Below are positions 19,138 to 31,116 of a DNA stretch of 38,542 nt, piece after piece; positions within the stretch are counted from its first letter, which is position 1, and each line of letters starts with the position of its first letter. This DNA comes from an uncultured Methanomicrobiales archaeon. GTDB lineage: Archaea; Halobacteriota; Methanomicrobia; Methanomicrobiales; Methanospirillaceae. A model generated the notes under the pieces. The model was not told where the DNA came from and ran no database searches. It saw only the letters and a list, made by a program, of their open reading frames with translations. A program made the position numbers and the translations under genes. The stretch spans positions 1-38,542 of the forward strand of contig CAIKOD010000118.1 of assembly GCA_903828975.1 (NCBI GenBank). Reading direction: 5' to 3'.

Positions 19138-20988
19138 TCATGGGAAAGCCAGGTGGATACCTGCACCGATGGCCAGCCCGAGAATCAACGTGTACGTCGT
19201 CACCAGGACAACCGTCTTTAACCCCATCTGCCGGTAGAGGACGGCAATCGTGGATATACACGGGACAAACAGTACACTGATTATAGCCCAGGTATACAAC
19301 TGGACCTGGGTCATTACTGTATTCAGTGCAGGCGTACCGGCAAGGACCACCAATGCCCCGAGTGCCATCTCCTTCCGGAGGATCCCGAACATAAGGGCCG
19401 TTGTTGCGTAGGCAGGAAGCCCGAGCACCATTGTTGAAAATGGCGCGATAAAATTCGTAAATGCTGTTATTATCCCATAATACTGCAGTAACCCGAGTAT
19501 AACACTGCTGAGTATCAGCAGGGGCATTGCAATGATGAGAAATTCAGAAATTTTTCTCCACGATTTTTTCACTACATTACCGGCCTGCGGTGCCCGGAGC
19601 GGCGCCATCTCCATGATCATACCAAACCGTTCTCCCGGTGTTATCCGTGAGAGAAACAGCCCGGTAAGTACGACAAGAATGAATACGATAAGGTAAATTG
19701 AAAGTGCCCACCAGATACCAACAAAGGTTGCGACAACCCCGGCGATAATCACCGTCCGGGCAGAGCACGGGATCATGGTCACGAGAAATGAGGCAATAAA
19801 ACGCTCACGGCGCGATGCGAGGAGCCTGATGCTCATCACCGCAGGCACGGTACAGCCGAATCCAAGTATGAGTGGAATTATTGCCTGGCCATGCATGCCT
19901 ATCCTGTGCATCGCCTGGTCTGCCAGGAAGGCTGCTCGTGTCAGGTAGCCTGAGTCCTCTAAAATTGATATAAAGATATAGAATGTAAAAATGAAAGGAA
20001 ATGCGATGCCAATCCCTGCCTGAAGTCCAAGGAGAACAGAAATTGAAACCTGCTGGAGGAGTGGTGGCAGGCTGAGCGAAAGGAGCGGTGCAACCAGGTA
20101 GGTAGTAAAGAAAGCAACAATAATCCTTTCGAGCCATGAACCTATGGTAAATACCACGATCAGGATCCCGATAAGTATGGCCGCCATAATGGGGATGCCG
20201 GGTATACTCTTTGTAAGAAGCCGGTCCAGGTCGAACGCTGGTTTTTTTTGCCTGGTAGTAATTACACGGTCTGCCAGCTGTTCGGCAAAATGGTGACGGT
20301 TTGCTGAAATAATCTGGCGCGGGGACATCTTGTGCCGGTTTTCAATCTCGCCCGCGATTGCGGCAGACGAATCAAGCATTTCCTGGTCTGCCCCAATCCC
20401 TTCGAGTGAAAGGATAGCAACCGGTCTTGAGACCGGGAAGTTACCCATAATGCTTGTGACAGCAGCCTCGATGTGGTGGTCATACGCCACGGCAACGGTT
20501 GCAGGACAGGCAGAACTGAGCGCAGAAGGGAGAATCTGGCCGGTCCCCCTTCCATGGATCGCTGCTGTCATAATGACGGGGCAACCAAGAATTTTCGATA
20601 ATTCTGTTGAGTCGACAGATATACCAAATTTTTCTGCCTCGTCCGCCATATTCAGGACAACAAGCAGGGGCAGGCCATATTCCGCCACCTGGAGAAACAG
20701 GTACAGGTTTCTTTCAAGGTGAACTGCATCCAGTATCGCGATTACCAGGTCAAGTTCATGGCGTTCCAGCATGCCATTGACTAGTTTCTCTTCATCTGAA
20801 TCCCCGTCAAGCGAATAAATGCCGGGGAGGTCGCAGATTCCAAATTTTTCACGCTGGTAGCAGACATGTCCTTTTTCAAGTCCGACCGTTGTACCGGGAT
20901 AATTGCTTACCTCCACTCCGAGCCCTGTCAACTGGTTAAAGATCAGCGATTTCCCGACATTCGGATTTCCGATAAGCCCGATCTTCAT
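19138..20988 (-). CDS. feoB: Ferrous iron transporter FeoB
   Basis: This is the GTPase-coupled Fe2+ importer of the cell membrane. The 616 aa protein has an N-terminal G domain with G1 GNPNVGKS, the switch NYPGTTV, G3 DLPGIYSL and G4 NMAD. A helical GDI-like region follows (about 170-245). The C-terminal pore domain has the gate motifs around LILGFGCTVPAVMSIR and LVTMIPCSARTVIIAG with their conserved cysteines. It begins immediately after the stop of the DtxR-FeoA gene, whose end contains its GGAG site, so the two are co-translated. It is a shorter form than E. coli FeoB (773 aa). Confidence 0.95.
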   Translation of the reverse strand: MKIGLIGNPNVGKSLIFNQLTGLGVEVSNYPGTTVGLEKGHVCYQREKFGICDLPGIYSLDGDSDEEKLVNGMLERHELDLVIAILDAVHLERNLYLFLQVAEYGLPLLVVLNMADEAEKFGISVDSTELSKILGCPVIMTAAIHGRGTGQILPSALSSACPATVAVAYDHHIEAAVTSIMGNFPVSRPVAILSLEGIGADQEMLDSSAAIAGEIENRHKMSPRQIISANRHHFAEQLADRVITTRQKKPAFDLDRLLTKSIPGIPIMAAILIGILIVVFTIGSWLERIIVAFFTTYLVAPLLSLSLPPLLQQVSISVLLGLQAGIGIAFPFIFTFYIFISILEDSGYLTRAAFLADQAMHRIGMHGQAIIPLILGFGCTVPAVMSIRLLASRRERFIASFLVTMIPCSARTVIIAGVVATFVGIWWALSIYLIVFILVVLTGLFLSRITPGERFGMIMEMAPLRAPQAGNVVKKSWRKISEFLIIAMPLLILSSVILGLLQYYGIITAFTNFIAPFSTMVLGLPAYATTALMFGILRKEMALGALVVLAGTPALNTVMTQVQLYTWAIISVLFVPCISTIAVLYRQMGLKTVVLVTTYTLILGLAIGAGIHLAFP

Positions 20989-21714
20989 TTACATTTTCTC
21001 CACAAGAATAGTCCCTGCGATCTCAGGTGATAACGCGATGTCGCATTCCTTAACCTGGAGAACTACTGCGTTGTTATGAAGTTTTCTCTTTAAAATAACC
21101 ACTTCCCCGGGAATTACCCCGAGGTCGATTAACCTGTGAAGATACTCACCACCCGTGATCCCCATGACGGTCAGGGGAATGGATTCCGTCGCATCGATGA
21201 GAGAACGAAATGTCAGGCCGGTAGATGGTCCCACATGGGGGGCCTTTTTTTCTCCCGGCGTTATGCCTGGATCGGGGGGTTTCGGAGTACTATTGTTCAT
21301 TGGTTGGCAAAGGGGGGTATTCATCCGGTGCCGGCTTCTTCTGGACCCGGCTTTATTCACGTAGCTGCCTATCCGGTTGATGGCACTATCGGATATGGAA
21401 TGCTCCAGCACACACGCCTCGTCCGAGGCTGCACGCTCTTCCATCCCAAGGATCTCGCCAAGAAAGCATTGCAGGACACGATGTTTTTTCAGTACACGTT
21501 CTGCTGTACTATGTCCCTGGACCGTGAGGCTGATAGCCCCTTTTTCGTCGAAAACAAGGTCCCCCTGATTTTCAAGACTTTTTAAGTCCGCTGATGCGGT
21601 ATCCTCCCCAATTGACAGGTCTTCCGCGACATCTTTTGCAGAAGGTGTGGCCTGGGCAGCAAGATGCCTCACCAGTACTGCTTCAAGATAATCTTCCCGT
21701 TCAGAGGATTCCAT
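20989..21714 (-). CDS. DtxR-family metal-dependent repressor with C-terminal FeoA domain
   Basis: The 241 aa protein has a winged-helix DNA-binding domain (about 1-62), a DtxR metal-binding and dimerisation domain (about 65-125, with KKHRVLQCFL and the EACVLEHSIS ligand helix), a Pro-rich linker (about 140-160), and a FeoA/SH3-like domain (about 166-241, LTVMGITGGEYLHRLIDLGV). As the first gene of a two-gene operon with feoB, it is probably an Fe2+-dependent autorepressor. The FeoA domain could also contact FeoB, which has no separate feoA here. The Shine-Dalgarno site is weak. Confidence 0.88.
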   Translation of the reverse strand: MESSEREDYLEAVLVRHLAAQATPSAKDVAEDLSIGEDTASADLKSLENQGDLVFDEKGAISLTVQGHSTAERVLKKHRVLQCFLGEILGMEERAASDEACVLEHSISDSAINRIGSYVNKAGSRRSRHRMNTPLCQPMNNSTPKPPDPGITPGEKKAPHVGPSTGLTFRSLIDATESIPLTVMGITGGEYLHRLIDLGVIPGEVVILKRKLHNNAVVLQVKECDIALSPEIAGTILVEKM

Positions 21715-21897: not shown

Positions 21898-22671
21898 TTA
21901 TTTTACACGTTCCTTTTCTTTTTTATCCGCAAATTCGATCAATTTTATTGCCATTTCCTTTACCGCTTCCCTCGCAGGACTCCCTTCCGGGACCAGGGAC
22001 ACCGGTGTCGCCGCAAGGTCCGCAGCTTCCACGGCAGGATCATAGGGGACCACTGCGAGGGGGGCATCCTCAAAAACCCCTGCAGGGGCTACACCGCTTT
22101 TATACCGGTTAAAAACCAGGTGCATAGCTGAACGGTCGATGCCAAGGTCAAGAGCAATATCGATGATCCGGGAAGCTGTACGAAGACCCCGTGCACCGGG
22201 GTCACTCACAATCAGGAGGAGGTCAGGTATGCCTATAGTGCCCCTGCTGATATGTTCCATCCCCGCTTCTGAATCAATAATGATGAACTGGTAATCACGC
22301 TCAAGCAGACGCATGCAGGTTTTAAGAAGATCGTTTGCAAAACAATAACACCCGGTCCCTTCAGGTCTGCCCATCGCTATCAGGTCAAAGCCGTCGTCCT
22401 CAACGAGCACCTGGTAAAACCGGAACCTGATATATTCAGTGCGTGTCATCCCGGCAGGAATACTCTTCGTGAATGCATCTTCGCGCATCCCGCCAAGGTT
22501 TTCCCGTACCTCCACGCCAAGTGCCTCATGAAAATTTGCATTCGGGTCAGCATCTACCGCAAGCACCGGTGCTTTCCCAAGACCGATTAGGGCCCGCACC
22601 AGCAGGGAACTAATTGTCGTTTTTCCTGTACCCCCCTTACCTGCAACGGCAATGGTATACGGGACAATCAT
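21898..22671 (-). CDS. CooC/AcsF-like nickel-insertion ATPase
   Basis: This is a MinD/ParA-type P-loop ATPase of 257 aa. It has a deviant Walker A KGGTGKTT (12-19), a DADPN switch I and an IIIDSEAGMEH switch II. The CXC pair in GTGCYC (C108, C110) is the metal-binding motif of CooC, which delivers nickel to CO dehydrogenase. The related AcsF loads the acetyl-CoA synthase A-cluster. Because the locus encodes acetyl-CoA synthase but no CO dehydrogenase, A-cluster nickel loading is the likelier job (inference). It is the last gene of the locus. A 48-base gap with an AT-rich, T-rich stretch precedes it, so it might also have its own promoter. Confidence 0.88.
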   Translation of the reverse strand: MIVPYTIAVAGKGGTGKTTISSLLVRALIGLGKAPVLAVDADPNANFHEALGVEVRENLGGMREDAFTKSIPAGMTRTEYIRFRFYQVLVEDDGFDLIAMGRPEGTGCYCFANDLLKTCMRLLERDYQFIIIDSEAGMEHISRGTIGIPDLLLIVSDPGARGLRTASRIIDIALDLGIDRSAMHLVFNRYKSGVAPAGVFEDAPLAVVPYDPAVEAADLAATPVSLVPEGSPAREAVKEMAIKLIEFADKKEKERVK

Positions 22672-22719
22672 AGTTCAGACCACCCGCCTTTATCAGGGCA
22701 GGCTGAAAAAAATATATTT

Positions 22720-23766
22720 CTACGGCCTTTCATTAATTTTATTCCCCCTCACATGGGCTGATATCATAGCGGCTGTTTCCATAATGTTACATGATTCTGT
22801 TTCGGTGGCGAATCGTATTCCACAGCTTGGGGTTATTATTGATTGGGCATCAAATAATTTTTCCGGGATATATGAGGTCACTTCTTTCCTGATGCTCATG
22901 TAGCGTTCATACAGTGATTCCGGGGTTTCCCCGGAAAAAACACGGTTATCGGCAGGCACAACACCCCATGCGACAACACCGCCCCGTTCAAGGTAGGTAA
23001 AAAGATCATCCCTGTACAGGAGAAATTCCTTCGTCGTCGCATAAGCATCAAACGATACCACACCCGGTTCAAGGGAAAAAATAAAACTCCAGTCGGTATT
23101 ACTGCAGCAATGAATGCCTATGCTCCCCTGGAGCAGATCTGCGATATCATGCCAGCCTGATTTGACGGTATCCATGTCTATCGGGACTACCGATGACCCA
23201 AGGGCAGCCAGGTACGGTTCGTTCAACATCACCAGGGTATTCGTGCCCCCTGCATTCCAGGTAAGTGTCTGTTCGAGCCAGCGGGCCCGGAGGGCGATCA
23301 ACTTCGAGAGGACGTCAGCGTACTGGCTGTCATAATATATCGGCCGTTTCTCTGCATCCACAACCTGCATACCAAACGTTACCGGTCCCGTGACCTGGCA
23401 TTTCAGTGCGAAGGGAGAGAGAAATTTCCTTTTTATAAATTCGTGAAAGCCTGAGGCATATTCCGTTGCAATTGCATAGGGTGAATAATTCCCTTCGATA
23501 TAATCGAGATAGATCTGTTCCATTACTCCCGAAAGATCCGCTTCACGGTCAACAAGCAGCCTTTCCTCCCTGATTACCCTTCCAGGGAGGCATTCTGAAT
23601 CACAAAATACAATATTTTCCAGAATTCCCCTGTTGGGGAGTGAGGGTGCATACGGTAACTGCGGGAATATCCTGATCACCTCATCACATGCTTTCACAGG
23701 GTCTGTATGCGGAAGGCTCCCTATGCCGGTCGCAAGGCTCCCGGGGGATGCCAGGTGAACCGCCAT
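22720..23766 (-). CDS. Core-MetE methyltransferase, probable folate-independent methionine synthase
   Basis: The 348 aa protein covers only the catalytic barrel of cobalamin-independent methionine synthase. The N-terminal folate-binding half is absent. It has the opening LATGIGSLPHTDP, a zinc-binding HCC motif (H219, C221) and a late cysteine in TPSCGIRF (C315) matching the DCG ligand of MetE. The acidic ligand may be D240. Core-MetE proteins (MesA-MesD families) make methionine from homocysteine with methyl-corrinoid donors. Here it follows the corrinoid Fe-S protein genes and their activator, so methyl-CFeSP is the likely donor. The ATG at 23766 overlaps the upstream stop (TAATG), and GGGAG lies about eight bases ahead. 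An in-frame ATG at 23802 is less likely. Confidence 0.82.
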   Translation of the reverse strand: MAVHLASPGSLATGIGSLPHTDPVKACDEVIRIFPQLPYAPSLPNRGILENIVFCDSECLPGRVIREERLLVDREADLSGVMEQIYLDYIEGNYSPYAIATEYASGFHEFIKRKFLSPFALKCQVTGPVTFGMQVVDAEKRPIYYDSQYADVLSKLIALRARWLEQTLTWNAGGTNTLVMLNEPYLAALGSSVVPIDMDTVKSGWHDIADLLQGSIGIHCCSNTDWSFIFSLEPGVVSFDAYATTKEFLLYRDDLFTYLERGGVVAWGVVPADNRVFSGETPESLYERYMSIRKEVTSYIPEKLFDAQSIITPSCGIRFATETESCNIMETAAMISAHVRGNKINERP

Positions 23767-25682
23767 TATGGTACTCCCGGGGGAATTTTTTTCAACCGGC
23801 ACTCATCGAGCATTTTCTGGACCCGGGGGAATAATGAGAGGTCTGTGTGGGGAAGGAACGAACTGCCGGTATACTCATCCATAAAGGACGACTCGGCATT
23901 CAGTTCGATATAGGCGATATTCTTTGCAATTTCATCAAGTGTTTTTCTTTTTTTCCGGTTGATCAATGCCATATTCGCTCCCTCAACGGCCCCGTTCCCA
24001 ATATTTCTTATCTGTTCAATGGGGACTTCAGGAATAAGCCCGATCATGATCGCATTTTCCTTGTGAATATAATTTCCAAATGCCCCTGAAAAATAGATGG
24101 TTGATAGTTCGTTTCGTGTAATCCCGGCCTGTTTCATAAGAGTTATGCAGGCAGCAAGAACTGAGGCCTTGCTCATAATCAGGTTCTTGATATCATTCTC
24201 GGTGATTACAATATCCTTGTTATTTCCACTTTCCTGTTTCCATGCAATGACGTATTCGGGGAAATGGACCCCCTGCCTGATACGCGGATGGATGATTTCA
24301 GTGTTGATCCGCCCTGTCCTGTCCACGACGCAGGCCCTGAGAAGGTCGGCAAGAAGGTCGATAAGCCCGGAACCACAAATCCCCATCGGTTTTATGCTGT
24401 TTATGGTCTGGTATTGGGGTTCCAGTGTTACCGGATCTATCGTGATGCGTTCAATTGCACCGGGGTTCGCTCTCATCCCAAAGAGGACCTCCCCACCTTC
24501 AAGGGCAGGCCCTGCAGCACCGGCACACGAGAACATCCAGTCACGGTTCCCAAGTACCACCTCAAAATTTGTTCCGATATCTACAAGAAGTGATATCTCA
24601 TCCCGTTCACCCATACCGGACGCAAGGATGTCAGCAATGATATCACCACCAATGAAATCAGAAACGGCAGGGAATAAGAAGACCGAAGCATCCTTCGCAA
24701 CCTCAATCCCAAGCCTCGGTGCTGCGGTGGTCAGGTAACGCCGCACTACCGGGACATAGGGCTCCTCGATCATGTACGCCGGGTCAATACCAAGGAGGAT
24801 GTGAGTCATGATTGTGTTCCCGGCAACGACAACCTCATAGATATCCTCCCTGTCGATCCCGGCACCATTCGCGGCAGTGGTGATTGCAAGGTTGATACTC
24901 TCGGCTGCAAGCGCCTGTAACTTGGGGAGCCCGTTCTTTCTTGCGAAATTCACCCTCGATAGGATGTCCTCTCCGCAGCTGATCTGGCGGTTATAATTTG
25001 ATGCAATACCAACAACATGCCCATCAACAAGACTTCGAATATATGCAACGACCGTGGTAGTGCCGAGATCTATGGCAACCCCGTAGAGTTCTTTTCTGGT
25101 GTCCCCCTTCTCAATATCAATAATCCGGTACCCGCCAGGTACAAGTGCGAGGGTTGCGGTAACCCTCCACCCGCTGTCACGGAGGACACGGGGCATCCCC
25201 CGGAGGACATCAAGGGGGGCATACATTTTCTCTGCCAGGGGACCACCCTGTTTCTGGATCCCCCATACAAGCCTTGTAAGGTCAGGGGACGGGTCTTCAA
25301 GTGTCGGGGGTGAGAGCTCGACATAATATTTCCATACGGACGGCTGAAAGGGGGTCTCGATACCAAGAGATTCCATCAGGATTTTCTGCTGCTGGATAAG
25401 TGAACTATCAGGGATCATGACATGGAGGTCATCCCTTACAACAGCCTGGCAGGCAAGACATGCACCCTGGCCAAGTTCATCGGCAGTAAAAAATTTTCCG
25501 AACTTTTCACGGTCAAATTCCACTGAACCGTTTTTTATGTAGACAATGCATTTTCCGCACTTGCCCTGCCCACCACAGACAACATTCATCTGGATTTGGG
25601 CACGCTGTATTGCATCAAGAATCGTACTCCCCGGTTCCACGGTGATCTTCCGGTAACTGGGGAGGAACGTGATGGAAGGCAT
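23766..25682 (-). CDS. RACo-like reductive activator of corrinoid protein
   Basis: The 638 aa protein has an N-terminal [2Fe-2S] ferredoxin domain (C36, C42 and C45 in CGGQGKCGKC, and C75 or C78 in CLACQ), a linker region (about 90-195), and an ASKHA-type ATPase domain with VAIDLGTTTVVAYI, VVVAGNTIMTH, LLVDIGTNFEVVLG and YFSGAFGNYI. Such proteins use ATP to return inactive Co(II) corrinoid protein to Co(I). The substrate is probably the CdhDE protein encoded next to it. It starts one base after the cdhE stop, a clear sign of co-transcription. Confidence 0.92.
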   Translation of the reverse strand: MPSITFLPSYRKITVEPGSTILDAIQRAQIQMNVVCGGQGKCGKCIVYIKNGSVEFDREKFGKFFTADELGQGACLACQAVVRDDLHVMIPDSSLIQQQKILMESLGIETPFQPSVWKYYVELSPPTLEDPSPDLTRLVWGIQKQGGPLAEKMYAPLDVLRGMPRVLRDSGWRVTATLALVPGGYRIIDIEKGDTRKELYGVAIDLGTTTVVAYIRSLVDGHVVGIASNYNRQISCGEDILSRVNFARKNGLPKLQALAAESINLAITTAANGAGIDREDIYEVVVAGNTIMTHILLGIDPAYMIEEPYVPVVRRYLTTAAPRLGIEVAKDASVFLFPAVSDFIGGDIIADILASGMGERDEISLLVDIGTNFEVVLGNRDWMFSCAGAAGPALEGGEVLFGMRANPGAIERITIDPVTLEPQYQTINSIKPMGICGSGLIDLLADLLRACVVDRTGRINTEIIHPRIRQGVHFPEYVIAWKQESGNNKDIVITENDIKNLIMSKASVLAACITLMKQAGITRNELSTIYFSGAFGNYIHKENAIMIGLIPEVPIEQIRNIGNGAVEGANMALINRKKRKTLDEIAKNIAYIELNAESSFMDEYTGSSFLPHTDLSLFPRVQKMLDECRLKKIPPGVP

Positions 25683-27020
25683 CTAGATTTTCCACTCCTT
25701 TTGAAGGTAATCTCCTATTTCTGCGGCATCACGGGGCCCTACAAGGACTTTCCAGCCGGTCTCCTCTTCGATCTTGCCGGAAAGCGGCGAGGCATAGCCG
25801 GGGATAATAAGACGGCGGTGCGAAACAAGATTTTCGAGGTCGAATTTTTTGATGGAGTCCCTGACAAGTGTCTCATTCAGCTTTCCCGCTGCAACCGCAG
25901 TAAGTACAGACAACCCCTCGGTGTCAACGATGAACATGTAACAGGGGACCCGGCTTGACTCAAGGTACCCCTGAACGGTGAAGTAGGTCAGTGAGAAGTT
26001 TACGGTAAGCAGTACCGGTGACTCTTTCCCCGGGTTACCAACAGGATATATCCCCGGGTTCATCTGGATCGGTTTCTGGGGGTCAGTATAGATGTTCTGG
26101 CGGAGGGTAAGTGTCGCTACTGATGATGCAGGCCCAAGTGCCGGGGTCACGATCACTCCTGCGTATTTGTCGATTCCCAGAACAAGCGCCGTGTCCTGCA
26201 TCTCGTAACGTGTTGTATCAAGGAAGATTGGATAACCAAGTTCTGGTGCAGACCGGGAGATAGATTTCTGCCGGATTTCGGTTGCTGCAGGGACATAGTC
26301 CCGGAGTGAAGGGAACGACAGGTCAAGAAGCAGGTCAGTAATACCTTCTGCATTGCAAAGTTTTGTCATCTCGCCCAGCGATTCAAGGTCTTTTGCACTT
26401 ACAACAAGCGGTGACCCGAATTTTTTCGCAAGGGCACACATTGGTTTGTACGTGTCTTTTGTGGCTGAGTAAATGAGAGGGCGGAAATTTCCGCATTTTT
26501 TAAGGCCTTCTTCCTGAACCACGGGGTCCGCAGCCATTAATACTTCGGGAATATGCGTCCCTGTTGCCTCTACAACACCCACTGCCTTTGAAAATACATC
26601 CGGATCCCCGCTTTCATTCGTTATTGCAACCCCGGAGAAGGTTAAATCGGTCCCTACCCTGACAAAATGTTCTGATCCTACTCTCCGGGTCACAGATTCA
26701 ATTTTTTCAGCAGGCCAGATGTCAGATACCTGGAACATGATGCCTGGCGGGTGATAGAACGTTTTTTCATGGCGGAAGACTACAAATTCCTCTCCAACTG
26801 CAAACCTCCGTTCTCCAACCCCGATCTTCACCAGCTGGATCGGAGGGCGTGTGGACGCACCAAGAATGTTTTTCGCATTGAGGTCGAGATAGGGACATTT
26901 ATCTATGTCACCCTTACCACTGGCGAGTTTCATTGCGAAGGTCAGGCAGGTCGGGTCCCCGCACTCTTTGCAGTTCTTTTTAGGCAGTAACTTGTAAATG
27001 TCAAGGGCTTTCAGTACCAT
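25683..27020 (-). CDS. cdhE: Corrinoid iron-sulfur protein large subunit (CdhE/AcsC)
   Basis: This is the gamma subunit of the acetyl-CoA decarbonylase/synthase system. It carries the methyl-cobamide and a [4Fe-4S] cluster. The 445 aa protein has the N-terminal cluster motif with C17, C20, C25 and C42, then a TIM barrel and a C-terminal corrinoid-binding domain (from about 320; LTVNFSLTYF, VVDTEGLSVLTAVAAG-like, IPGYASPLSG). The start at 27020 lies four bases after the cdhD stop and removes an unrelated 14-residue extension. It forms a heterodimer with CdhD. Confidence 0.94.
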   Translation of the reverse strand: MVLKALDIYKLLPKKNCKECGDPTCLTFAMKLASGKGDIDKCPYLDLNAKNILGASTRPPIQLVKIGVGERRFAVGEEFVVFRHEKTFYHPPGIMFQVSDIWPAEKIESVTRRVGSEHFVRVGTDLTFSGVAITNESGDPDVFSKAVGVVEATGTHIPEVLMAADPVVQEEGLKKCGNFRPLIYSATKDTYKPMCALAKKFGSPLVVSAKDLESLGEMTKLCNAEGITDLLLDLSFPSLRDYVPAATEIRQKSISRSAPELGYPIFLDTTRYEMQDTALVLGIDKYAGVIVTPALGPASSVATLTLRQNIYTDPQKPIQMNPGIYPVGNPGKESPVLLTVNFSLTYFTVQGYLESSRVPCYMFIVDTEGLSVLTAVAAGKLNETLVRDSIKKFDLENLVSHRRLIIPGYASPLSGKIEEETGWKVLVGPRDAAEIGDYLQKEWKI

Positions 27021-27024
27021 AATT

Positions 27025-27978
27025 TCAGAACTCCCCGGGCTTTTTTCCCGCCCATAATTCACGGAAGGCCAGTTTCAGCAGGGGAACCGTCTTTGGGTGC
27101 CGTACACAAACAATGGAAGCCCCGGCAACTGCCGAGGAGAGCGCTGCATAAAATTCCCATGCAACGGCTATATCGTCCCTGATAACGGGATCTGCTTCCC
27201 GGACTTCTTTTACGCTGAGGGAGTCCATGGCCGAGGCAATCATCGGCATGGCAAGGTCAGTATCCCCCTTTAACGCAGCATAGCGTATCCGTTCCATTAC
27301 TGAATAGGAATACTCAAACCCATATCCAAGCGACCCCGTATAAGGGTCAATCATAATATGGTCCGCCTTCACGCCGATTTCACGGAGGAGGATATTGAGC
27401 TGTTTCGCGAGGTTGATGTCAATTGGTGATTGTGCGACCATGGAATGATTGTAGGCCATCGCTGCAGCGGCAACACTGCGGTACCTCCCTGCCTCGGCAG
27501 TACCAAGGAGCAGGCGTTCACCCTGCCCTGCTTCACCGCACCGCTGGAATATCTCTGAGTCGATTGCCGGTTCATTACTCCCTTCTACGACCAGTGGAAG
27601 CCCCGTGCCGGATAGTACATCTTCCGTTACCTTTGTAATTGAAGGGAAGTCGTCGAATCCACGGCGTTTCGTACTGGTCAGGTATAGCCGGACAAGGTCT
27701 GCTCCGTATTGTTGTTCAGCTGCAGTTGCCCATTCCGGTGTATCAGACACGAGATCACCGGTATATGAAGTTACTATCGGGGACCAGTATGAAGGGTCAT
27801 CACAGATTTCAAACGCCACAAGCGGGATCGAACCTAGTGATGTTTTCATCCCGATGAAGGGTAGATCTGATTCACCACCGAGGCGGTATGAAACAGACCT
27901 CGTACCGTCTTCTGCCTTTGTTGCTCCAAGGACAACGTAACCAATTTTTCCACCCAGATCCGGGCTGTTTTCTGCCAT
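27025..27978 (-). CDS. cdhD: Corrinoid iron-sulfur protein small subunit (CdhD/AcsD)
   Basis: This is the delta subunit, a TIM-barrel partner of CdhE that helps hold the corrinoid. The 317 aa protein shows family blocks IPLVAFEICDD, GADLVRLYLTSTKRRGFDD, PLVVEGSNEPAID, AAAAMAYNHSMVAQSPIDINLAKQ and MIDPYTGSLGYGFEYSYSVMER. I start it at ATG 27978, seven bases after GAGGTGAT. A TTG two codons earlier is possible. It begins 11 bases after the acsB stop. Confidence 0.94.
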   Translation of the reverse strand: MAENSPDLGGKIGYVVLGATKAEDGTRSVSYRLGGESDLPFIGMKTSLGSIPLVAFEICDDPSYWSPIVTSYTGDLVSDTPEWATAAEQQYGADLVRLYLTSTKRRGFDDFPSITKVTEDVLSGTGLPLVVEGSNEPAIDSEIFQRCGEAGQGERLLLGTAEAGRYRSVAAAAMAYNHSMVAQSPIDINLAKQLNILLREIGVKADHIMIDPYTGSLGYGFEYSYSVMERIRYAALKGDTDLAMPMIASAMDSLSVKEVREADPVIRDDIAVAWEFYAALSSAVAGASIVCVRHPKTVPLLKLAFRELWAGKKPGEF

Positions 27979-27989
27979 CAGCAATCACC

Positions 27990-30020
27990 TCATAGTAACG
28001 GTTTCATTGCGAGGGCCGGGTGCTGGACTTCGTCGAGAAATGCAACCAGTTCCTCTAAGGTTGTTGCCTTCGTCTCATCGGCAATTTTTTCAAACAGGTC
28101 CGGGTGACCAAGTTCATTCAGTTTCTTAACGAGCCGTTCTTTCAGCTCCTCTTTTACCAGTGAGGGGAGCCAGACAAGTCGTTCAATTCCCCCTTCATCC
28201 TGAAGAAACCGGTCAGAAAGGATATAATTTTTAGAGATCCCGGCGAAACCAGGTGTCTGGGCTCCACCACCGATTGTCCCTGCAAGCGTGGAAAAAGACA
28301 TACCGGAGGGTGTGTCCCCCTTGTATTCGCGGTTCACGACCATGATACCGTTCACTTCAGGGAGCATCAGGGCAATGCATTCAAAGCACCCACAGCAGGT
28401 CATCGGGTACTCCATGATACTGTAAAGGGAACACCGTTCAACCTCCCCATGCGAGGCTTTCTTTACAAAGCGGTTTACACCTTCGAATTCTCCCTTATCA
28501 CGGTCAATCACTACCCCTTTCTCAACAGGCTGGTTTGCTCCTGAAGGGGATATTTCATATGCAATTTTACCATCCAGCCAGGAGATTGCGCCGCATAATG
28601 CAGGTCTTTCGGGTGTGATAATACAGACATGGTTTGGTGCAAAGGTCTGGCAGAGTGTGCAGGAATAAAACAAATCAACATCGGTATCTTTCATTCCCTG
28701 GATGCGCCTGTCGCGTTCCTCGTAAATCCCCTCAGCTTCCTTTTTCCCTGCCAGGACCGCCTGGAGGTCAGTCACCATTGTTACCTGGACGGCGTCCAGG
28801 AGGTCAGGGAAATCAATCCTGAACTTGGTCGCGATCAGCTTGCCGATATGCTCGATTTTTATTCCGTTTTTTACTGCATCTTTTGATATTCGTACCCAAA
28901 TGAGGTCACGTTGTGCAACATGCCATGATCCTTCACCATAATTGACGAAATTATGGATCCTCCGCTCTAAAACAGGTTCAAAATCCTTTCTCATTGATTT
29001 TCCTGCGACATCAACGATAATTCCAAGCGGGACTGCTGATCCCTCCTTAACAGACTCAATTTCAGGACCCATAACGCGGATAAGGCCATCTGTTACTTCT
29101 GATGCAGGTTTCACGCGGAGCAGCTCAAATGCAGGAGAACGGCCCCCGCCGAATTCCACGTACATCTCTTCCTTTCTTATACTCTTACCTTCAAATGCCG
29201 GGGAACATGACATTGGGATCGGGATAGCCGTGACCGTGACCTTGATCCCTTTTCGTTCCATCCCTTCCCTGACCGCGTCCTGCGGGAGCGTAGTGGTCCA
29301 CTCACCACCCTCGTATCCACCGAGAGAGAGAATAGGGATACCGAGAAGCCGTAGAGCGTCAACCAATGCAATGCCTTCATTATCGAGACCTGGAAATACG
29401 ATGGCAATCGCCTTTGCACGCTGGTTTGCATAGGCAAGCAGCCTGCCCGGGTCACCCGGGACAACCCCGCCGAACATCAGGGCAACCCGGGTGATAATAT
29501 CAACAAAATGCACACCATGGATGGATGTTGAACCGAGAGGGATAAGCCGGTACTCAAGTCCCAGTTTGACCGATGCTGACGAGAGAGAGGGTACCACGTC
29601 TCCGGCAAGGAAGGTGAGCATGTATTTTTCCTGAAGTTCCCGGCAGATCCGGGAGGCCGTATCGGAGTTCCCGGGGGTGCCAATTACAAGCGCGAGTCCG
29701 AGGATACTCCCGTCAACAAGGGAATACCCGAGTTTTCTGAGGACAGCATCCCCGATAAACCCGGTATACGGGGCAGGTTCACGACCTGGACCCTGTTCAG
29801 AAAAAGCAAGCACTGACTCACATGCAACAAAGGGGTTTTCGTCGGTGAGATTGTACACCTCGATCGCCTCCTGTGCTGTATGTACCGGGCGACCGGTGAG
29901 GGCATAGGCAACAGGCAGGTGATAGGCAGTCTCTTCATACGCAAAGGGTCCCTCTATAGCGTTCAACTTCTTCTTCAGGCTTGCATTGCCAAGCGTTATT
30001 GCGGTCTTCATCTCGGTCAT
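27990..30020 (-). CDS. acsB: Acetyl-CoA synthase, bacterial-type long form
   Basis: This enzyme makes (or cleaves) acetyl-CoA from CO, CoA and the methyl group of the corrinoid protein at a Ni-Ni-[4Fe-4S] A-cluster. All six A-cluster cysteines are present (C454, C457, C466, C476, C543, C545), as is the nearby F460. The spacing is the same as in Moorella AcsB (506, 509, 518, 528, 595, 597 and F512, a constant offset of 52). The 676 aa length includes the N-terminal domain of about 310 residues that in bacteria contacts CO dehydrogenase. Archaeal CdhC is about 470 aa and lacks it. It is the first gene of the locus, with GAGGT eight bases before the ATG. No CO dehydrogenase gene lies in the window. 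Confidence 0.95.
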   Translation of the reverse strand: MTEMKTAITLGNASLKKKLNAIEGPFAYEETAYHLPVAYALTGRPVHTAQEAIEVYNLTDENPFVACESVLAFSEQGPGREPAPYTGFIGDAVLRKLGYSLVDGSILGLALVIGTPGNSDTASRICRELQEKYMLTFLAGDVVPSLSSASVKLGLEYRLIPLGSTSIHGVHFVDIITRVALMFGGVVPGDPGRLLAYANQRAKAIAIVFPGLDNEGIALVDALRLLGIPILSLGGYEGGEWTTTLPQDAVREGMERKGIKVTVTAIPIPMSCSPAFEGKSIRKEEMYVEFGGGRSPAFELLRVKPASEVTDGLIRVMGPEIESVKEGSAVPLGIIVDVAGKSMRKDFEPVLERRIHNFVNYGEGSWHVAQRDLIWVRISKDAVKNGIKIEHIGKLIATKFRIDFPDLLDAVQVTMVTDLQAVLAGKKEAEGIYEERDRRIQGMKDTDVDLFYSCTLCQTFAPNHVCIITPERPALCGAISWLDGKIAYEISPSGANQPVEKGVVIDRDKGEFEGVNRFVKKASHGEVERCSLYSIMEYPMTCCGCFECIALMLPEVNGIMVVNREYKGDTPSGMSFSTLAGTIGGGAQTPGFAGISKNYILSDRFLQDEGGIERLVWLPSLVKEELKERLVKKLNELGHPDLFEKIADETKATTLEELVAFLDEVQHPALAMKPLL

Positions 30021-30331: not shown

Positions 30332-30613
30332 ATGAAAATGGAACATGTAGATGGAAAAAATGAAGGGAAGGTCGTACTGTTTGCACTCTCTACCTGTGGG
30401 TGGTGTAGTAAGACCAAGGAATTATTAAAAGAACTCGGAATTGCCTTTGATTTTGTCTATGTCGATCTCCTGCCAACTGAAGAGATGGACGATGCAATTG
30501 GACTCATCGAGAAGTGGAACCCGGCCGGATCCTTTCCTACGCTCATCGTCGATGATCGGAAAGCAGTAATCGGATTCCGGGAAGAAGAGATCAGGGGTGC
30601 ATTCAGCAAATGA
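30332..30613 (+). CDS. Glutaredoxin-like thiol-disulfide protein
   Basis: The 93 aa protein has the thioredoxin fold pattern, with [19 protein letters not shown] (active-site CGWC), [13 protein letters not shown], and the cis-proline loop [15 protein letters not shown] lies six bases before the ATG. It overlaps the ferredoxin-thioredoxin reductase gene by four bases (ATGA), which suggests it is the partner that the reductase keeps reduced. This fits archaea that lack glutathione. Confidence 0.88.
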
Positions 30614-31116
30614 ACGCGGGGGATATCAGCCAGGATGATGTGGAGAGAAAATACCAGGTACTTGACCGCGAGGCCGGAGAAGGCGGCTACCACCTTGGCC
30701 CGGACAATGAGTTTACAAAAAAACTTGTCCGTGGATTGCTAATCAATGAAGGTCGGTATGGATATCCTGCGTGTCCCTGCCGCTTCTCAAGGGGGATAAA
30801 AGCTGAAGACCTCGATATCATATGTCCATGTGATTACCGGGACCCGGATCTTGACCAGTATGGTGCCTGTTACTGCGCTTTGTATGTTTCTGATGCTATC
30901 CTGTCGAATAAACAGTCCCTTTCCCCCGTGCCTGAGCGAAGGCCCCCGAGGTGTGAAAGAAACAGCAGGAAAACGATTCATACAACCCAGACAGGATCCC
31001 TGTCGTACCCGGTCTGGCGCTGCAGGGTTTGCGGCTATCTCTGCGCGAGGGATGAAGCCCCCCTGGTCTGCCCGGTTTGTAAGGCTAAAAAAGACCGTTT
31101 TGAAAGATTTATGTGA
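30610..31116 (+). CDS. Ferredoxin-thioredoxin reductase catalytic domain fused to rubredoxin
   Basis: The 168 aa protein has an N-terminal FTR catalytic domain (about 10-100) with three paired cysteines: CPC (55, 57), CPC (72, 74) and CYC (87, 89). These hold the active-site disulfide and its [4Fe-4S] cluster. After a basic linker, a C-terminal rubredoxin domain (about 133-168) has [10 protein letters not shown] and LVCPVC for one iron. Electrons would run from ferredoxin or the rubredoxin domain to the disulfide and on to the co-encoded glutaredoxin (inference). Similar fusions are known in methanogens. Confidence 0.9.

Follow-up and report, generated by a model that had tools for sequence, protein, structure and literature searches.

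A six-gene acetyl-CoA synthase module with a MesB-like methionine synthase in Methanomicrobiales, and its relation to CO dehydrogenase

The analysed stretch of DNA (the window, 38,542 nucleotides) comes from an uncultured archaeon of the Methanomicrobiales. Between positions 21898 and 30020 its minus strand carries six genes in the order acsB-acsD-acsC-RACo-mesB-acsF. A sequence-only reading had described them as acsB, cdhD, cdhE, a RACo-like activator, a core-MetE and a CooC/AcsF-like ATPase, and all six open reading frames (ORFs) were recovered with the same positions and strand. Identities were assigned with family models, and for the MetE-like ORF with a structure model:

27990..30020, minus strand: acsB, bacterial-type acetyl-CoA synthase, 676 aa (NF040764, 892 bits, cut-off 800)
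27025..27984, minus strand: acsD/cdhD (NF003376, 350 bits, cut-off 280)
25683..27062, minus strand: acsC/cdhE, large corrinoid-binding subunit with Fe-S domain (NF003195, 532 bits, cut-off 306; PF03599, PF04060)
23766..25682, minus strand: RACo/AcsV-like reductive activator of corrinoid protein (PF14574, PF17651, PF17650, PF00111)
22720..23802, minus strand: mesB-like core methionine synthase (zinc ligands; MetE/MesD fold)
21898..22671, minus strand: acsF/cooC-like MinD-family ATPase (PF13614/PF01656)

The genes are as tightly spaced as had been described: neighbouring genes lie 0-11 bases apart or overlap briefly at the start codon, and a gap of 48 bases precedes the last one. When first start codons are used, CdhD-CdhE and RACo-MesB overlap, while internal ATGs leave near-zero gaps. 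The RACo/AcsV-like ORF combines three RACo Pfam domains with a 2Fe-2S domain, and the terminal ATPase, whose gene adjoins mesB in most of the loci read, including those of genomes without CO dehydrogenase (CODH), is probably an A-cluster nickel-insertion factor. The six-gene order is found again in many relatives, so the arrangement is not due to chance. No Rfam riboswitch was found near the cluster. Among the matches listed, the nearest named record is the uncultured Methanomicrobiales archaeon AM5_bin-0447, whose AcsB is 93% identical.

Neither Pfam nor NCBIfam gives a match for the MetE-like ORF, and a HMMER search of the PDB with a MesB profile returned none either. The AlphaFold model of this ORF (pLDDT 91) matches MetE/MesD structures and 3rpd, and depicts a 360-aa protein with a MetE-type fold that lacks the N-terminal folate domain. 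The zinc ligands H231, C233, D252 and C327 are kept in at least 97% of 44 homologues and reproduce the HCDC pattern of MesB; AcsC and AcsD, which are expected to accompany a MesB, are encoded in the same operon. The first possible start of the gene is a GTG at 23802, the likelier one an ATG at 23766, and the model is disordered over residues 1-13. Of the loci read beyond Methanomicrobiales, only two (L208 and L220) showed mesB, and their homologues are 31-33% identical to the window MesB.

Domains, CO alcove and origin of AcsB

The window AcsB carries an N-terminal A1 domain with a shortened helical bundle, followed by A2 and A3. It scores 632 bits against the Carboxydothermus enzyme in phmmer, and its model resembles the isolated A1 domain 6yua_A (TMt 0.79). 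Near the A-cluster this model is of low quality (pLDDT <50), and therefore no distances were taken from it. The A-cluster ligands (C454, C457, C466, C476 and C543-G544-C545) are intact in all 55 AcsBs of the clade. The domain layout and these ligands are shared with the bacterial CODH/ACS of Moorella, Carboxydothermus and Clostridium autoethanogenum; the window differs from these systems in its gene order, in the lack of an adjacent CooS or AcsE, and in two features of the AcsB protein itself.

The first is the length of A1, the CODH-docking domain in both acetogen structures (PMC11474084): between two landmarks the bundle spans 53-58 residues in the clade (n=55), whereas bacterial enzymes have 73-90 and the archaeal ACS fused to CODH has 75. 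The second concerns the CO alcove, for which five residues have been described in Moorella (G145, I146, V149, F229 and F512) and on which CO binding and autotrophy depend, whereas methylation does not (PMC11321310). Positions were mapped through Carboxydothermus numbering, one less than that of Moorella, as read from the phmmer alignment. Four of the five residues are kept and Ile146 is replaced by Tyr in 55/55 clade members (Y99 in the window), where the comparison set has Ile, Val or Thr. Since the 55 proteins form one clade, the Tyr alcove and the trimmed A1 count as one ancestral event and not as independent evidence. Both are also found in genomes that carry CooS, which counts against using them to argue for independence from CODH. 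Judged from their sequences, the clade AcsBs are at odds with Biester et al. (2024), who state that no methanogen has A1 (PMC11474084).

In the phylum sample, a long AcsB above the NF040764 cut-off occurs only in Methanomicrobiales and in one further family (f7), whose AcsB is fused to CODH. A tree of the best-80 sample, with no recognisable Dehalococcoides in it and a single long CdhC branch as root, places all Methanomicrobiales AcsBs in one clade outside the sampled bacteria, so that recent transfer from one of these bacteria is unsupported. The bacterial loci found mostly show acsB immediately downstream of cooS, accompanied by the order acsC-RACo-acsF-acsD; an ORF of 264-290 aa takes the acsE position in these clusters, an assignment by position.

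CO dehydrogenase in the genome and across the order

The sequence-only reading had presented the module as one without CO dehydrogenase. This is correct for the window, whose contig has no CODH family match, and wrong for the genome: the draft encodes two CODH systems, a cdhABCDE operon on a contig designated C13 and a CooS on another, C77. The C13 operon reads cdhA (827 aa)-cdhB-cdhC (459 aa)-cdhD-cdhE and is accompanied by a CooC-like ATPase and a divergent RACo; it thus supplies the second, archaeal-type cdhC for which a search had been proposed. It is a Methanosarcina-type ACDS (CdhABCDE), separate from the window module and distinguished from it by a CdhC without A1 and by the absence of mesB linkage. 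In the archaeal complex type a CODH domain stands in place of A1 (PMC11474084); having its own A1-less CdhC, the C13 operon is an unlikely partner for the window AcsB. The C77 CooS, a stand-alone protein above the TIGR01702 cut-off, is a possible one. A third candidate, on contig C82, proved to be a hybrid-cluster protein. Contamination is an unlikely origin of the CODH contigs: their tetranucleotide correlations (r 0.94-0.95) fit the genome, the C77 CooS is nearest to same-genus copies, and CdhA is also carried by same-genus genomes.

We scored long AcsB, CooS, MesB and CdhA in 61 Methanomicrobiales-type genomes (the window genome and its relatives), those at least 90% complete being termed good. 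Among good genomes, AcsB and MesB are jointly present in 28/28 and jointly absent in 22/22 (Fisher p 1e-14), and all 7 supported phylogenetically independent contrasts, drawn on a MesA tree that serves as a rough one-gene species tree, are concordant (p 0.016). AcsB shows no association with the presence of any CODH (OR 1.35, p 0.73), and on the same tree none of the CODH contrasts is significant. With CdhA alone the association is positive (p 0.003), but the phylogenetic contrasts lend it no support. Among AcsB carriers, CODH presence must have changed at least five times. Genomes G011, G034, G041, G042, G046, G048 and G051 have a CooS of the same clade and lack AcsB, and AcsB in turn is found in genomes that lack CooS. 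Against independence, CooS lies about 3 kb downstream of the module in three genomes (G010, G016 and G024). The module tracks MesB, not CODH. As for a bifunctional CODH/ACS, no CODH is found at the window locus and, at the gene level, none is statistically linked to it.

Four genomes hold the full module and no CODH, even as a fragment: G025 (96% complete), G027 (98%), G032 (91%) and G040 (99%), the last a closed genome of 1.98 Mb and the others drafts. The absence of any CODH that characterises the Dehalococcoides type is thus seen in these four and not in the window genome. A comparison of locus order across Methanomicrobiales, which the sequence-only reading had called for, finds the complete six-gene order in each of them. 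Each of the six genes gives dN/dS values of 0.04-0.23 in pairwise comparisons that take in CODH-less genomes, with one AcsB value saturated; module genes in CODH-less genomes are under strong purifying selection.

A possible route from acetate to methionine

We lean slightly towards reading the cluster as a CODH-independent methyl-transfer module, coupled to MesB and working in the acetyl-CoA-cleaving direction, a direction that we infer. Its role would probably be to make methionine from acetate carbon rather than to fix CO2. Acetate would be activated to acetyl-CoA by acetate-CoA ligase, which is encoded in 9/9 genomes checked. AcsB, matured by nickel insertion through the AcsF-like ATPase, would cleave acetyl-CoA and pass the methyl group to the corrinoid iron-sulfur protein AcsCD, which RACo would keep active by rescuing inactive corrinoid; MesB would then move the methyl to homocysteine, giving methionine. 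The CO would escape or, in genomes that have a CODH, be oxidised by that enzyme. More tentatively, and with rather less confidence, the whole clade might be a dedicated acetyl-CoA decarbonylase, in which trimmed CODH docking and a Tyr-filled alcove let CO leave and commit the methyl to MesB. The suggestion that the module is self-contained stands in part: it occurs with and without CODH, is linked to MesB and keeps AcsB under purifying selection in CODH-less genomes, although its own genome bears CODH. Of the two options once offered, acetyl-CoA cleavage or cooperation with a CODH encoded elsewhere, the evidence favours cleavage, in a genome that nonetheless has CODHs.

The main difficulty is that a MesA-like methionine synthase is also encoded in almost every relative. 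Methanogens have methyl-H4MPT, and with a nearly universal MesA this means that MesB is not required for methionine as such, so the gain from a second methionine route is questionable. If the clade is a dedicated decarbonylase, hydrogenotrophic methanogens would draw the methyl group of methionine from acetate despite making methyl-H4MPT themselves. The window genome encodes a single full-length Pterin_bind protein, which was considered as a candidate AcsE and is dihydropteroate synthase; no AcsE was therefore found there that would load methyl-pterin onto AcsCD. Against this argument, archaeal CdhD/E may take methyl groups from H4MPT without AcsE.

Several alternatives draw on the same observations. 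In a split version of the standard pathway, which we hold to be unlikely, the C77 CooS would feed CO to AcsB, acetyl-CoA would be built from methyl-H4MPT-derived methyls, and MesB would be a side branch. The CooS of the window genome scores above its cut-off, CooS adjoins the module in three relatives, cooS directly precedes acsB in most bacterial loci found, and A1 folds like the docking domain of bacteria, all of which speaks for this pathway; it is harder to reconcile with CooS and AcsB each occurring without the other and showing no association, with a full cdhABCDE for acetyl-CoA synthesis already present in the genome, and with the trimmed A1 and alcove Tyr. Methyl-H4MPT is abundant in methanogens, and it could instead load AcsCD directly for MesB to methylate homocysteine; AcsB would then serve only to capture CO on occasion, for exchange or as a methyl buffer. 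Price et al. predict the corrinoid protein (CoFeSP) as MesB donor and leave the methyl source in methanogens unnamed (PMC7857596), which would suit direct loading. We nevertheless regard this as distinctly improbable: all 28 good genomes with the module retain AcsB, selection on it is as strong as on the other module genes, and no AcsE was found in the window genome.

A decaying remnant of a CODH/ACS complex has a precedent in Methanoculleus, whose acetate-requiring members have partial CODH/ACS sets that Nagoya et al. (2021) read as ongoing deletion (PMC8621161). For the present module decay is scarcely credible: the complete six-gene order is kept, metal ligands are intact, and the low dN/dS in CODH-less genomes largely refutes it. 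Our results suggest that the partial sets of Methanoculleus are likewise an intact module instead of decay. Methanoculleus bourgensis MAB1 requires acetate and makes no methane from it (PMC5062929). A CODH-independent role for acetyl-CoA synthase would extend to a large methanogen order, and the sets of acetate-requiring Methanoculleus would become an intact pathway.

Operons joining mesB to the CoFeSP genes acsC and acsD are already known in some methanogens from Price et al. (2021), whose main text holds no test of CODH independence, AcsB retention or AcsB residues (PMC7857596). What is new here is the test of CODH independence, the replacement in the alcove and the finding of A1-bearing ACSs in methanogens. 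The parallel with Dehalococcoides drawn by the sequence-only reading is apt at the functional level: an ACS that does not require CODH, with acetate as the proposed methyl source. Acetate C2 labels the methionine methyl of Dehalococcoides, and the same route is proposed there (PMC7005905; PMC7857596). The module of D. mccartyi comprises AcsB, AcsCD and core-MetE/MesB, with neither CODH nor AcsE. It shares with the window module an ACS, a CoFeSP and a MesB-type synthase with no need for CODH (PMC7005905, PMC7857596), and with the window genome the lack of AcsE, none having been found in the latter. Unlike D. mccartyi, the window host is an archaeon with MesA and methyl-H4MPT, and its genome also has CODHs. 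Finally, the window genes form one tight operon that includes RACo and AcsF, whereas core-MetE of strain CBDB1 is grouped with SAM genes (PMC7005905).

CODH fused to, or encoded near, acetyl-CoA synthase

In three genomes of one family (f7; loci L133, L134 and L135), a CooS-type CODH and the acetyl-CoA synthase AcsB are fused in a single ORF of about 1,350-1,400 aa, which is followed by acsD and acsC. This ORF is a natural CODH-ACS fusion, and a further one is apparently encoded in a different Euryarchaeota record, L173.

L133 6591-10778, CODH-AcsB fusion ORF
L134 8164-12297, CODH-AcsB fusion ORF

In three related module-carrying genomes, G010, G016 and G024 (loci L044, L046 and L056), the six genes are followed, some 3 kb further downstream, by a CooS, which in G010 and G016 adjoins a CooC-like gene. 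CooS is also encoded in the genome of a Methanomassiliicoccus record that carries acsB, mesB and acsF.

L220 9944-20269, acsB-acsD-acsC, separated by about 4 kb from mesB and acsF

There is no cooS upstream of acsB at the Omnitrophota loci L184, L187, L213 and L216; at L216, acsB instead follows Fhs-like, FolD-like and methylene-THF reductase-like genes.

The methionine synthase MesA in the window's draft genome

MesA of this draft (G000) is encoded on contig C33.

L132 563-1477 (C33), MesA

It shares only 57% identity with MesA from a same-genus genome, and the tetranucleotide correlation of C33 is lower; the contig may be a contaminant.

Genes flanking the cluster

The cluster lies between two gene pairs.

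30332-31116, divergent from acsB, glutaredoxin and ferredoxin-thioredoxin-reductase/rubredoxin-like gene
19138-21714, directly downstream of the cluster, FeoB next to a DtxR-FeoA fusion

The divergent pair, which perhaps serves redox maintenance of the module, recurs beside acsB in numerous relatives, at L039, L044, L046, L143, L152-L154, L156 and L159, and the FeoB pair is likewise downstream of the cluster in the nearest relative, L141. The window also holds an incomplete RNA gene, cut by its edge.

1-298, archaeal RNase P RNA
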